Positions 7,601 to 15,541 of a stretch of 32,108 nt of DNA are shown here, in pieces (the first letter of the stretch is position 1; the number at the start of each line of letters is the position of its first letter). The DNA is from Nitrospirota bacterium (lineage in GTDB: Bacteria > Nitrospirota > Thermodesulfovibrionia > Thermodesulfovibrionales > UBA1546): the NCBI GenBank assembly GCA_016208875.1, contig JACQXD010000098.1, forward strand, positions 1 to 32,108, written 5' to 3'. A program made the translations under genes and the position numbers. The notes under the pieces are model-generated. The model ran no database searches, was not told the origin of the DNA, and worked only from the letters and a program-made list of their open reading frames with translations.

Positions 7601-7942
7601 ATGAAACTGCAGGAAATTGTCGATAGCCTCTCTCTTGACGTCAGGACACAGGGAACAGACCTGAACAGGGAAGTATCGGGAGGATATGTAAGCGACCTTC
7701 TGTCGGATGTAATAGGGAATTCAAAAGAAGGTAATATCTGGATAACCCTTCAGACCCATCAGAATATTGTGGCGGTTGCGGCATTAAGGAACCTGTCGGG
7801 TGTTATCCTTATCAATGGAAGGTCTCCGGATGCGGATACATTGAAGAAGGCGAATGAAGAAGGCGTTTCTATTCTGGTAAGCCCTTTGCCTGCCTTCGAA
7901 GTTGTTGGAAGGCTTTATTCTCTCGGCCTGAGATGCCGGTAG
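7601..7942 (+). CDS. DRTGG-domain protein
   Basis: MKLQEIVDSLSLDVRTQGTDLNREVSGGYVSDLLSDVIGNSKEGNIWITLQTHQNIVAVAALRNLSGVIL; overlaps the PHP gene. Confidence 0.75.
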   Translation: MKLQEIVDSLSLDVRTQGTDLNREVSGGYVSDLLSDVIGNSKEGNIWITLQTHQNIVAVAALRNLSGVILINGRSPDADTLKKANEEGVSILVSPLPAFEVVGRLYSLGLRCR

Positions 7943-8460
7943 AGTTCAGGGCTGACCTCCATATACATACCTGCCTTTCGCCGTGTGCAGACCTTTATAT
8001 GACTCCCCTTCGCATTGTGGAAAAAGCTGCTTCACATGGATTAAATATTATAGCGATCTGCGATCATAACTCTGTAGAGAATGCAGATGTTACAAAAAGG
8101 TTGGCCAAACAAAGAGGGATTAAAGCCATTGCCGGAATGGAGATAACAACTTCAGAAGAAGTCCACATCATCGGTCTTTTCCGGGATATAGACGATGCGA
8201 TAAAGATGCAGGAAATCGTCTATGAAAATTTGCAGTCCGGTGAGAATGATGAAGATGCATTCGGCATGCAAGTTGTTGTTAATGAAAAAGAAGAAGTCCT
8301 CGGTTTCAATAAGCGGTTGTTGATCGGGGCCACAGGGCTTTCGGTTAATAAAATAGTAGATACGATACATTCCTTTAACGGTCTGGCAATTGCAGCTTCG
8401 ACATTCGAGGAACTTTGTTTGGCCTTAAGGAGTGCAGAAGGAAGAAGGGTTATTCTGTAA
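7933..8460 (+). CDS. PHP-domain metal-dependent phosphoesterase, possibly C-terminally truncated
   Basis: FRADLHIHTCLSPCADLYMTPLRIVEKAASHGLNIIAICDHNSVENA. Confidence 0.85.
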   Translation: MPVEFRADLHIHTCLSPCADLYMTPLRIVEKAASHGLNIIAICDHNSVENADVTKRLAKQRGIKAIAGMEITTSEEVHIIGLFRDIDDAIKMQEIVYENLQSGENDEDAFGMQVVVNEKEEVLGFNKRLLIGATGLSVNKIVDTIHSFNGLAIAASTFEELCLALRSAEGRRVIL

Positions 8461-8587
8461 GTCAAAAATATCGCTAATTTCTTTCCATGCAATAAAGAAT
8501 TTTTGCGATAATTTGTCAAGACCGATTATTGCGATTGAGTAATTCTTTAAAATATCTTATCCTTAATTAATAAGGAGGCCAAAGGTT

Positions 8588-8929
8588 ATGGGCATTGTAA
8601 GAGAGGCAAATCCGGCAGCATTAAACGTTGCACGGGAGTTTGCTAAAAAAATCCATGAACTGTTTCCTGATGCAATAGTGAAGCTTTTTGGTTCTGCTGT
8701 TAGAGGGGAGATGGAAGAACTCAGCGATATTGATATTTATATCGAATTACCTGACAGAATTGATATGGAAGCGGTAATGCCACAATTAAGCGAAATTGCA
8801 TGGGAGATCGGTCTTGAACACGGACAGGTTATTCAGGAAGTGATATATAAAAAAAGCGAGATTTGGGATAGTCCGTTAAGGTCTTCTCCATTCATTAAGG
8901 CTGTTATTAGAGAGGGCATCACCTTATGA
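8588..8929 (+). CDS. MNT-type nucleotidyltransferase (antitoxin)
   Basis: KLFGSAVRGEMEELSDIDIYIEL; SD aaggagg upstream; ATGA overlap with HEPN gene. Confidence 0.88.
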   Translation: MGIVREANPAALNVAREFAKKIHELFPDAIVKLFGSAVRGEMEELSDIDIYIELPDRIDMEAVMPQLSEIAWEIGLEHGQVIQEVIYKKSEIWDSPLRSSPFIKAVIREGITL

Positions 8930-9336
8930 GAGATTCGGATGTTATTGCCCTTATCACCCATAATATACAAAAATCAGATGATTCAATCGTACAGGCAGAA
9001 GCCCTTTTTAATATCGAGCAATATTTTGGCTCTGTGAACAGGGCATATTATGCGATCTTTTATGCTGCACTTGGCATTTTGCTCACAAAAGGACTCGGCA
9101 GTTCGAAACATTCAGGGGTGCTTTCCTACTTTGACCGTGAGTTTGTAAAAACTAATGAGGTTGATAAGAAATGGTCAAAGGTATTTCACGATGCATTTGA
9201 GTTACGGTCAATGGGAGATTATGCAAAATTAATAGGAGTTACCAAGCTTCAGGCAGAGACACTGATTAAAGATGCCAAAGGCTTTGTTTTGTGGGCAAAA
9301 CAATGGCTGAAGGAACGTGACTGGTTAGCTGAATGA
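8926..9336 (+). CDS. HEPN-domain protein (putative toxin of MNT/HEPN pair)
   Basis: AEALFNIEQYFGSVNRAYYAIFYAALGILLTKGLGSSKHSGVLSYFDREFVKT..ELRSMGDYAKL. Confidence 0.88.
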   Translation: MRDSDVIALITHNIQKSDDSIVQAEALFNIEQYFGSVNRAYYAIFYAALGILLTKGLGSSKHSGVLSYFDREFVKTNEVDKKWSKVFHDAFELRSMGDYAKLIGVTKLQAETLIKDAKGFVLWAKQWLKERDWLAE

Positions 9337-10151: not shown

Positions 10152-10469
10152 ATGGATATCGAGAGCTATTTAAAGAGTATTGTAGAGAGGATTACAAATA
10201 ACTTTAATCCTGAGAAGATAATCCTCTTTGGCTCTTATGCCTATGGTCATCCTACTGCCGATAGCGATATAGACATAATGGTTGTAATGGATACCGACAT
10301 GAAACCTTATGAGAGAGCGATTCCCATTAGAAAAACGCTGAAATATCTCGGTATGCCCAAGGATGTTATTGTAAGGACCCCGCAGGAATTTGAAAGATTT
10401 AAGGATATTGTCGGTACCATAATTTATACCGCTGCTCATAAAGGAAAAGTGATTTATGAAAGACGATAA
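10152..10469 (+). CDS. MNT-type nucleotidyltransferase
   Basis: KIILFGSYAYGHPTADSDIDIMVVMD; SD ggaggtga upstream. Confidence 0.9.
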   Translation: MDIESYLKSIVERITNNFNPEKIILFGSYAYGHPTADSDIDIMVVMDTDMKPYERAIPIRKTLKYLGMPKDVIVRTPQEFERFKDIVGTIIYTAAHKGKVIYERR

Positions 10470-12018: not shown

Positions 12019-13731
12019 TTAACTGATCTTCCATATCAATTCGAAATTGCAGAGGATAATCTCAGGTTTACCGGAACTATTTTTCATAAGCTCCCCTTTT
12101 TCGTCCATTACGAGGAGAAGATCGTTGGCCTTTAGCGATGAGCCGTCATAACCGGTATTTATTAATCTCTCCTTTGTTTTTTCCATGAAGTCTTGGCACT
12201 GTGATTCACTAATAATGCCGTTATGAACTGCCTTAAACAGGTCTATCGGAGAATACAGCAGGCTTTCGTGTTCGGCAACCCATTGATCGGGACCGTTGTA
12301 GTATCCGCGGATCGTGATGTAATTATGATCCTCCTGAAGGATGGGTTCACCTTCCGGGTCGAGGATGTTTTTATGAGACTCGTATTTTCTGAGGTCGCTT
12401 GACGCCTCTATCTTGTGACTGCCCGTCATATATATTGCCCGTACATAAACCGACGGTATCCCGATTTGGTTTAGTTCATGGGCAATGGCAAATTCCTCGA
12501 ACGGACTGTTTATGCCGTACTGCCGGATATTGGAATTAGAGTTTCCGTCTTCTTCTTCTCCGGGTATTTCACCTACTCGGGAGGTTTTCCAGACAAGGTG
12601 AATATTGTCTTTTGTGATCGTGTAAAACACCTCTTTTGTGCCGGATAGTCGTAGAGAAGGCGTCTTTCGCCACCTTTCAGGAAGAAAATAATCAAACAGA
12701 TGGGCATTTCTTCCTACAACCCAAAGGTGTCCTCCCGTGCTTTCCGCATGCCCGTAAATATAGGGGACGCCGAATATCTCGGTATACGAGAGATGAGCGG
12801 GTAATGGAGTAGGTTTAAAACGATTCCTCTGGTCATCGAGATACGAATGTCTTCTCGAAGACTTTACCTCATCTTCATGATCGGGGGTACGCAGCAGGAG
12901 TTCATAATCAATTACCGAATATCTGCACTCGTTTATCAGGCGATGCACCAATTCGATCTGTGCGGCAAGGGGATTATCTTTTTCGGTAAGCCCGATCTCT
13001 TCAATACGGTCGGTGCCGGCCTCGCTTAGAATAATATGCTCGGGCTTCATATCTGCCACAAGGTAGCCCTTTTTGTTAAGGTCCCCGATAACTTGAGAAT
13101 TAATCCTTTTAAGGTGTCTTATAAGTTCATCCTTCTCGATATCGAGGGTCTCAAAGATTTCCATAAGGTTTTTACCTTTTATCCATTCGTAGATAAGCTT
13201 GTATTGCTTCAGTATGTCCAGATCAATGCCTGGATGTTTTGCCCTTATGCGGTTTATCTTTTCCCTCGACCTGCCGCTCTGCCACAACTGCATCCTTTCC
13301 GGCGGCACATAGATTGCCATCGGCCTCTGGGTATTGACCTGCATTTCCTTAGGACCGTAGTGTCCCTCCCGCATATCCGCAACCAGAGAGAATTCTTCCC
13401 ATGGGCTGTTGAACTCTGCATCGCAGAATTCCTGCAAGACATGGGTATTTATAGGGACGTCCTCTCCTACACGGCAGTTTTTTACGACGAGATCGAGTAT
13501 CCTTCCATTGACCTCTTTTGTCGAAACCCTGTAGACGGAGCTTGTGCCTTTTAGTCTTATCTTATGCCCGTCGAACCAGTCTTTTTCATACCAGTTCTTT
13601 ATCTCGAAATGTTCCTGATGCGGGACACCGAATCGCGTGAGATACAGGTCTCCGTCATCGCTGGTCTTAGTGTGGATATAAACTACTCCCAATACGTTAA
13701 CGAGAGATTTCTTTGAGATCATCTTTTCCAT
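12019..13731 (-). CDS. Uncharacterised protein with internal duplication and kinase-like motifs
   Basis: Repeated block RVGE...NSPWEEFSLVADMR / RVGE...NSPFEEFAIAHELN; YEWIKGKNL hinge-like and GYLVADMKPEHIIL catalytic-loop-like motif; downstream of PEPCK on the same strand with a 22-bp gap. Confidence 0.7.
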   Translation of the reverse strand: MEKMISKKSLVNVLGVVYIHTKTSDDGDLYLTRFGVPHQEHFEIKNWYEKDWFDGHKIRLKGTSSVYRVSTKEVNGRILDLVVKNCRVGEDVPINTHVLQEFCDAEFNSPWEEFSLVADMREGHYGPKEMQVNTQRPMAIYVPPERMQLWQSGRSREKINRIRAKHPGIDLDILKQYKLIYEWIKGKNLMEIFETLDIEKDELIRHLKRINSQVIGDLNKKGYLVADMKPEHIILSEAGTDRIEEIGLTEKDNPLAAQIELVHRLINECRYSVIDYELLLRTPDHEDEVKSSRRHSYLDDQRNRFKPTPLPAHLSYTEIFGVPYIYGHAESTGGHLWVVGRNAHLFDYFLPERWRKTPSLRLSGTKEVFYTITKDNIHLVWKTSRVGEIPGEEEDGNSNSNIRQYGINSPFEEFAIAHELNQIGIPSVYVRAIYMTGSHKIEASSDLRKYESHKNILDPEGEPILQEDHNYITIRGYYNGPDQWVAEHESLLYSPIDLFKAVHNGIISESQCQDFMEKTKERLINTGYDGSSLKANDLLLVMDEKGELMKNSSGKPEIILCNFELIWKIS

Positions 13732-13753: not shown

Positions 13754-15541
13754 TTATCCGAGACGTGTTATCAGCTCCTTAAGTTGTACTTTTAATCGCT
13801 CGGGCAGGCGGGTGCCGAACATTGCAAAGTGTTCTTCGATATCAGGTATCTCATCCCTCCACTCCTTAATATCTATCTTCATCAACTCTCTCAAGTTTTC
13901 GGCCGGTATATCCAAACCGTTGAGGTCTATATCGCCCTCTATCGGCAATAGACCTATGGGTGATTTCAGGGATCCAACCTTGCCCTCGACCCGCTCGCAC
14001 ATCCATTTCAGTACCCTGCTGTTGTCGCTGAATCCCGGCCACAAAAACTTGCCGTCCGGACTCTTTCTGAACCAGTTAACATAAAAGATTTTCGGTGCCT
14101 TACTGCCGAGCCTGTCGCCCATGTCGAGCCAATGCCGGAAATAGTCAGCCATATTGTATCCGCAGAAAGGCTTCATGGCAAAAGGGTCCCGTCTTAAGTA
14201 GCCTACTTCACCTATATTGGCAGAGGTAGTTTCAGAGGCTGCGGTTGCCCCGAGGAAGACACCGTGATCCCACGAGTATGCCTCGTGTACCAGTGGGACT
14301 ACGCTGCTCCTACGGCCTCCGAATATGAATATATCTATCGGAACACCGGTAGGATTTTCCCAGTCTTTGCAGATCACAGGACACTGTGATGCTGGCGCAG
14401 TGAAACGGGCATTAGGATGTGCCGCGTCCGTGTTGCTTTCCGGCGTCCAATCACGTCCTTTCCAATCAATGAGATGCGACGGTACATCATCGTTAATCCC
14501 CTCCCACCAGACGTCTCCGTCGTCGGTAAGGGCGCAATTTGTAAAGATCACATTTTCCTTGATCGTCTCCATAGCCATTGGATTGGTCTCGTACGATGTT
14601 CCGGGCGCAACGCCAAAGAAACCGCTTTCCGGGTTTATGGCATAAAGGCGGCCGTCCGAGCCGATCTTCATCCATGCGATATCGTCGCCGATGCATTCAC
14701 ATTTCCAGCCTTTAATGGAGGGCTGCATCATAGCAAGATTTGTCTTGCCGCAGGCAGAAGGGAATGCAGCAGCAATATGGTACTGCCTGCCCTCGGGATT
14801 TGTAAGTCGCAGGATGAGCATATGCTCTGCCATCCAACCCTCTCTTTTGGCTATTGCAGATGCAATCCGTAGTGCCAGACATTTTTTCCCGAGCAAAGCG
14901 TTACCGCCGTAACCCGAACCGAATGACCAGACAAGGTTTTCCTCAGGAAAATGGCTTATATACTTACTCTCTATAGGTGCACACGGCCACTGTACATCTT
15001 TTTGTCCATTGCCTAACGGTACACCGATCGAATGCAGACATGGGATAAAGTCTTCGCCTCTATCGAGGAGTTCAAGCACTTTTGAACTCACCCGGGTCAT
15101 AACATGCATGTTGCAAACGACATAAGGGCTATCGCTGATCTCGACCCCGATTCTCGATATCGGAGAGCCTATAGGTCCCATAGAAAATGGGATCACATAC
15201 ATTGTACGGCCTTTCATACATCCGTTATAAAGACGCTTCATAGTATCTTTAAGTTCGGCAGGGGCGATCCAGTTATTAGTAGGCCCGGCCTTGTCTTTCG
15301 ATGAAGTACTGATGAACGTACGATCCTCGACGCGGGCTACATCGCTCGGATCGGATCTGAAAAGATAACTATTAGACCGCTTCTTAAGCGGGATCGCACT
15401 CCCATTCTCAAGCAATTTAGACAGCATAAGGTTATACTCTTCTTTAGTCCCGTTACAAATATATATATTGTCGGGCCTGCACATATCTGCTGTCTCTTTG
15501 ATCCAGTCGTTGAGTTTTTTGTTCTTAACCGTAATATTCAT
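13754..15541 (-). CDS. pckG: Phosphoenolpyruvate carboxykinase (GTP)
   Basis: [16 protein letters not shown]-loop, [37 protein letters not shown]-like segment. Confidence 0.97.

Follow-up and report, generated by a model that had tools for sequence, protein, structure and literature searches.

The window, the whole stretch of 32,108 nucleotides that was analysed, carries a gene for a two-domain protein, P0001, directly after the gene for a GTP-dependent phosphoenolpyruvate carboxykinase (PEPCK). Judged from sequence comparison, P0001 belongs to an undescribed family that is strongly conserved in Nitrospirota. We tentatively propose that this is a divergent kinase-like phosphotransferase family with a pseudokinase half, acting as the operon partner of PEPCK in Nitrospirota and most likely modifying either PEPCK or a factor that in turn acts on PEPCK. 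What the sequences themselves show, as described below, is the duplication, the conserved motifs, the degeneration of half 2, and the linkage and co-occurrence with PEPCK.

Organization of the pckG-P0001 region

The open reading frame of P0001 (570 aa) occupies exactly 12019..13731 on the minus strand and starts 22 bp downstream of the PEPCK gene, which is located on the same strand, as an earlier sequence-only reading had stated:

13754..15541, minus strand: pckG, GTP-dependent phosphoenolpyruvate carboxykinase, 595 aa (P0002); NF003253, 954 bits, E 2.8e-287; PF00821 and PF17297
12019..13731, minus strand: P0001, two-domain kinase-like/pseudokinase-like gene; conserved over its full length, 61-78% identity in Nitrospirota

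No terminator-like site was found in the gap between the two genes on the minus strand, and promoter-like sites in a scan of the region were at chance level. P0001 belongs to no family in Pfam, NCBIfam or PHROGs, in agreement with the earlier view that no characterised family could be recognised. No description of a PEPCK-linked bacterial kinase, of a tandem PEPCK pseudokinase or of the family itself was found in the literature searched, which does not prove that there is none.

The next gene below P0001 (11213-11935, minus strand) is a diverged thymidylate-synthase-like gene, whose closest model is TIGR03283, of the methanogen type (79 bits, under the cut-off). Such a gene was present at 0 of the 62 other loci compared and is therefore a local neighbour only. 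Elsewhere in the window, the ORFs at 8588-9336 and 10152-10469, both on the plus strand, were assigned by eye as nucleotidyltransferases (MNT-like); the former is followed by an ORF that by eye is HEPN-like, in the arrangement of a toxin-antitoxin pair. A plasmid search gave no match.

P0001 contains an internal duplication

A profile of residues 1-312 was aligned to one of residues 313-570 with hhalign (probability 96.9%, E 1.3e-10, 205 columns), confirming that the protein is built of two homologous halves, as had been claimed. Independently, a profile made from half 1 and single-domain relatives detected half 2 in other phyla, with E values of 1e-7 to 2e-17. On these alignments the internal duplication of P0001 is almost certainly real. 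When half 1, half 2 and the single-domain proteins were placed in one tree, half 1 (26 sequences) and the single-domain proteins (9) formed separate clades and half 2 was set apart by a long branch. The tree fits one old duplication, with single-domain forms that would be either older or secondarily reduced.

All the motifs quoted in the sequence-only reading are present. Its statement that both halves start with an equivalent FGVP segment proved incorrect: FGVP at 34-37 is FAEP in most relatives, and the true counterpart of FGVPY (320-324) in the hhalign alignment is LGVVY (14-18). Pairing of the two FGVP segments was rejected as being in the wrong register, both in alignment A1 and by hhalign.

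Half 1 retains kinase-like catalytic residues

Residue conservation was assessed in a set of 35 relatives (half 1 or single domain) that spans several phyla. The following features were located in half 1:

12796..13731, minus strand: half 1, residues 1-312, putatively active kinase-like domain; invariant catalytic residues, AlphaFold2 pLDDT 81, top 50 Foldseek matches all protein kinases
13528..13548, minus strand: putative Gly-rich-loop-like GTSSVYR, residues 62-68 (GTGSVYK in many relatives), from alignment A1
13480..13482, minus strand: Lys84 of LVVK, ATP-binding Lys position; Lys in 34/35, Arg in 1/35
13366..13404, minus strand: PWEEF helix, residues 110-122 (helical in the model), with Glu113 at the alpha-C Glu position; Glu113 in 35/35
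13174..13191, minus strand: hinge-like YEWIKG, residues 181-186; Trp183 and Gly186 in 35/35
13030..13068, minus strand: catalytic-loop-like GYLVADMKPEHII, residues 222-234, with Asp227, Lys229 and His232, each in 35/35; aligned by hhalign to canonical protein kinases (see below)
12901..12909, minus strand: DFG-position motif Asp275-Tyr-Glu277; Asp275 and Glu277 in 35/35

The elements thus run in the order GTxSVY loop, VVK, PxEEF, YEWIKG hinge, DMKPEHI and DYE. Glu113, Gly222, Asp227, Lys229, His232, Asp275 and Glu277 were invariant in all 35 sequences, and the four residues that mark the protein-kinase-like (PKL) superfamily, the ATP-binding Lys, the Glu of alpha-C, the catalytic Asp and the Asp that binds metal, follow each other in the correct order. 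The Asn of the catalytic loop is replaced by His, and DFG by DYE or DFE. Alignment A1 shows further conserved residues that are non-catalytic, FNSPWEEF and NWYExxWF. With this residue set, half 1 is probably catalytically active.

Related substitutions were seen in other bacterial kinases. A recognisable kinase (L092) carries HRDIKPEHIII together with DFG. In the small planctomycete kinases L089, L090, L096, L097, L099 and L101, HSDIKPGH and IDLE replace HRDxKPxN and DFG; the substitutions resemble those of half 1, but these kinases form a group of their own.

Half 2 is degenerate

Half 2 was compared in 60 sequences, 40 of the Nitrospirota set and 20 from Planctomycetota and Verrucomicrobiota:

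12022..12795, minus strand: half 2, residues 313-570, degenerate pseudokinase-like duplicate; hhalign to half 1 E 1.3e-10, catalytic Asp lost in 60/60
12586..12588, minus strand: Lys382, equivalent of Lys84; Glu in 29/40 sequences of the Nitrospirota set
12112..12153, minus strand: degenerate catalytic loop GYDGSSLKANDLLL, residues 527-540; Leu533 in place of the catalytic Asp in 40/40 of the Nitrospirota set
12040..12051, minus strand: CNFE, residues 561-564; the position of the DFG Asp is occupied by Asn in 57/60

Lys382 is still there in the window protein, and its position is Lys or Arg in 18/20 of the Planctomycetota and Verrucomicrobiota sequences, in which an ED dipeptide a little ahead of the site expected for the catalytic Asp could hold a displaced Asp. 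A pseudokinase has lost at least one of the VAIK Lys, the HRD Asp and the DFG Asp, as is found in half 2. The degeneration reported from the window sequence therefore holds across the family, with the catalytic Asp lost throughout and the DFG Asp replaced by Asn in nearly all sequences, and half 2 is very probably inactive.

The degeneration of half 2, the tight operon linkage (see below) and the conservation of the non-catalytic FNSPWEEF and NWYExxWF residues would also suit a non-catalytic, nucleotide-sensing subunit, which would bind PEPCK and use half 1 to signal the ATP/GTP state, with no transfer of phosphate. We consider this improbable, since the full catalytic set of half 1 is strictly kept in 35 diverse sequences, beyond what nucleotide binding needs.

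Relationship to kinases in profiles and structure models

Similarity of P0001 to kinases was detected with the NCBIfam model of Bud32 (NF011464; E 6e-5 and 22.8 bits, the curated cut-off being 246 bits), the sequence of S6K in the PDB (E 0.0035), PD-T4-6 kinases in PADLOC (E 9e-4) and ABC1 in Pfam (E 0.26), and the A1 profile matched canonical planctomycete kinases down to E 3e-6. Five kinase-pointing comparisons share one stretch, residues ~166-272, from the hinge to the catalytic loop. An hhalign comparison with an alignment of canonical kinases gave 95.3% (E 2e-8, 61 columns) with a comparison set that, being drawn from the same family-profile matches, is not fully independent. The Pkinase model PF00069 had no match in P0001; its best value, 0.089, was obtained for one of nine family members, and the Pfam gathering score was not reached.

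Models were obtained with AlphaFold2 (pLDDT 80 for the whole of P0001 and 81 for half 1). For both, the top 50 Foldseek matches in the PDB were protein kinases only, at probabilities of 0.94-1.00, with best E values of 6.5e-5 for the whole protein and 1.5e-4 for half 1 (1mru). TM was only ~0.3, against a fold-superposition criterion of TM above 0.5, and rmsd was mostly 6-10 Å. We read this result as shared local architecture, the remainder being divergent or misplaced in the models; it does not prove that the kinase fold is complete.

A single helix (283-303) follows DYE in the half-1 model, and the single-domain proteins stop within about 30 residues of DFE, one of them (L108) after about nine. 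An activation segment with APE and the helices alpha-F to alpha-I were absent from the half-1 model and from the single-domain C-termini. The substrate-binding C-lobe helices of protein kinases are therefore missing. The kinase-like architecture claimed in the sequence-only reading was thus recovered in the order of the motifs, the invariant catalytic residues of half 1 and the exclusive kinase matches; the fold itself is kinase-like only locally, with TM about 0.3 and a C-lobe that is short after the DFG position.

Assignment to the ordinary Hanks kinases was rejected because of the low TM and the missing helices after the DFG position. Bud32 membership was rejected since one of nine family members matched, far under the cut-off, and ABC1 membership since the match was not significant. 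A defence role was also rejected: the PADLOC matches are to generic PD-T4-6 kinases (E 9e-4) and cover the catalytic loop only. A kinase-related ancestry of the P0001 family is highly likely.

The kinase-like gene accompanies PEPCK in Nitrospirota

Among 295 sampled Nitrospirota genomes, 40 had a match to the P0001 family (in one, G071, to the catalytic stretch only, E 2e-6) and 47 had GTP-PEPCK. The kinase-like gene occurred in 39/47 genomes with GTP-PEPCK and in 1/248 without it (p 1.6e-39), and, by genus, in 24/30 with and 1/105 without (p 6e-20), in 2x2 tables tallied by hand and with tests that ignore relatedness. Within several families (e.g. f1, f2 and f13) the two genes are jointly present or jointly absent.

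PEPCK was located upstream on the same strand at 40 of 48 Nitrospirota loci; the gap was ≤250 bp at 32 loci and within 60 bp at 21, and at four the genes overlap by 8 bp. The eight loci without an upstream PEPCK comprise two without upstream sequence, one with 1.8 kb and five with about 6 kb of flank; two of these last five genomes were examined, and both carry a GTP-PEPCK elsewhere. Six of the eight Nitrospirota PEPCKs that lack the kinase-like protein are only 29-50% identical to P0002. From these identities the kinase-like gene is seen to follow one PEPCK clade in Nitrospirota. L181 and L182 have a PEPCK of the same clade as P0002 (77-81% identity) and no kinase-like gene; they are natural controls for the role of this gene.

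The linkage might be passive, the gene lying in a conserved chromosomal block with no functional tie to PEPCK: nearby genes are also conserved (M50-protease-like at 29/43 loci and trpS-like at 22/43, both named by eye), and no linkage to PEPCK occurs outside Nitrospirota. This explanation is improbable, because presence and absence track PEPCK across 24 genera of several families, which housekeeping neighbours cannot explain, and the pair is kept at loci whose other neighbours have moved. A functional tie of the kinase-like gene to PEPCK in Nitrospirota is likely.

Relatives outside Nitrospirota

Relatives were found in 13/199 genomes of one Planctomycetota class and in 14/196 genomes of the Verrucomicrobiota/Lentisphaerae phylum; a search of Chloroflexota yielded just one genome, already known. 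They occur as two-domain and as ~300-aa single-domain forms. PEPCK is normally not adjacent in Planctomycetota and Verrucomicrobiota, the exceptions being L055, where a fragment lies at 0.2 kb, and L109, where the distance is about 4.6 kb, and its presence is barely informative there (30/30 versus 24/30, p 0.02). The conserved pairing with pckG expected from the window thus stands in Nitrospirota, by both linkage and co-occurrence, and is absent from most relatives in these other phyla.

A planctomycete single-domain relative (L108, 7926-8801) lies 12 bp downstream of the gene for PEP carboxylase, an enzyme of the PEP/oxaloacetate node that uses the same metabolites as PEPCK. Four single-domain relatives of Verrucomicrobiota (L177-L180, about 7900-8920) abut or overlap argJ, of arginine biosynthesis, identified by Pfam in L178 and by similarity in the other three; L107 adjoins argG. 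In L177 and L179 an rpsI-like ORF, named by eye, is also close by. Neighbour scans outside Nitrospirota showed no recurrent partner but argJ in these four. With PEPCK mostly non-adjacent and ppc, argJ or argG as neighbours instead, the role of the family is broader than PEPCK. The argJ neighbours suggest other targets, and the partnership with PEPCK is a Nitrospirota specialisation.

IDYE/IDFE-type motifs and a catalytic-loop His are reminiscent of small-molecule and LPS kinases. Together with the missing C-lobe helices and the single-domain genes beside argJ and ppc, this resemblance would fit a kinase-fold enzyme that acts on a small molecule, or an AMP or other transferase, in the same pathway as PEPCK and leaving PEPCK unmodified. 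We regard this as unlikely, though less so than passive linkage or a nucleotide sensor: P0001 has no match to the APH or WaaP families in Pfam, and in profile comparisons it comes closest to protein kinases.

Proposed function

GTP-PEPCK, a central enzyme, is reported to be without allosteric control; acetylation switches the human cytosolic PEPCK, which is phosphorylated as well, and PPDK is controlled by a dedicated phosphotransferase, PDRP (PMC8100219). The lack of allosteric control and the post-translational modification of human PEPCK make a covalent regulator plausible.

For P0001 we infer kinase-type catalysis, PEPCK as the target and half 2 as a regulator. Half 1, or the single domain elsewhere, would bind a nucleotide through Lys84 and Glu113 and a metal through His232 and Asp275, and Asp227 would act as the catalytic base in the transfer of phosphate (or AMP). 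Half 2, a duplicate without catalysis, is probably a regulatory or docking module. In Nitrospirota, the kinase-like gene would have joined the operon of one GTP-PEPCK clade and be co-expressed with PEPCK. Its product would most likely modify PEPCK, or else a factor through which PEPCK is acted on, and would thereby determine in which direction, or at what level, flux runs between oxaloacetate and PEP.

That PEPCK itself is the direct covalent substrate is a possibility we put below this broader proposal. More speculative still is a new C-lobe-truncated kinase family in which the tandem form is dedicated to the covalent switching of the GTP-PEPCK of Nitrospirota and the single-domain relatives serve PEP carboxylase and arginine synthesis enzymes in Planctomycetota and Verrucomicrobiota. 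If the proposal is true, Nitrospirota would steer gluconeogenesis or anaplerosis through a dedicated kinase/pseudokinase operon partner, which would be a new kind of control, and the known kinase-like families would be joined by one that has a cut-down C-lobe and carries its own pseudokinase.

Comparison with known systems

With Hanks-type Ser/Thr kinases (e.g. PknB), half 1 shares the Gly-rich loop, VxK, the alpha-C Glu, the hinge, the DxKPxH loop and the Asp at the DFG position, and its best Foldseek match is 1mru (E 1.5e-4). It differs from them in the catalytic-loop His for Asn, in DYE for DFG, in an N-terminal extension of about 60 residues, in the absence of APE and of alpha-F to alpha-I, and in having no Pkinase match at threshold. 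The atypical kinases Bud32 and ABC1 (UbiB) resemble P0001 weakly in profile from the hinge to the catalytic loop, but only one of nine P0001-family members matches Bud32, far under the cut-off, and the ABC1 match is not significant. In the LPS heptose kinase family WaaP/InaA, His replaces the catalytic-loop Asn as in half 1, which we take as a lead only; P0001 has no Pfam match to this family, and its genomic context is different.

Plant PEP carboxylase kinase (PPCK) is a phosphotransferase dedicated to one enzyme of the PEP-pyruvate-oxaloacetate node. The PPDK regulatory protein (PDRP, DUF299) has such a role as well (PMC8100219). No sequence relation of P0001 to PPCK or PDRP was found, and P0001 differs from both in its partner enzyme and in the presence of a pseudokinase half.
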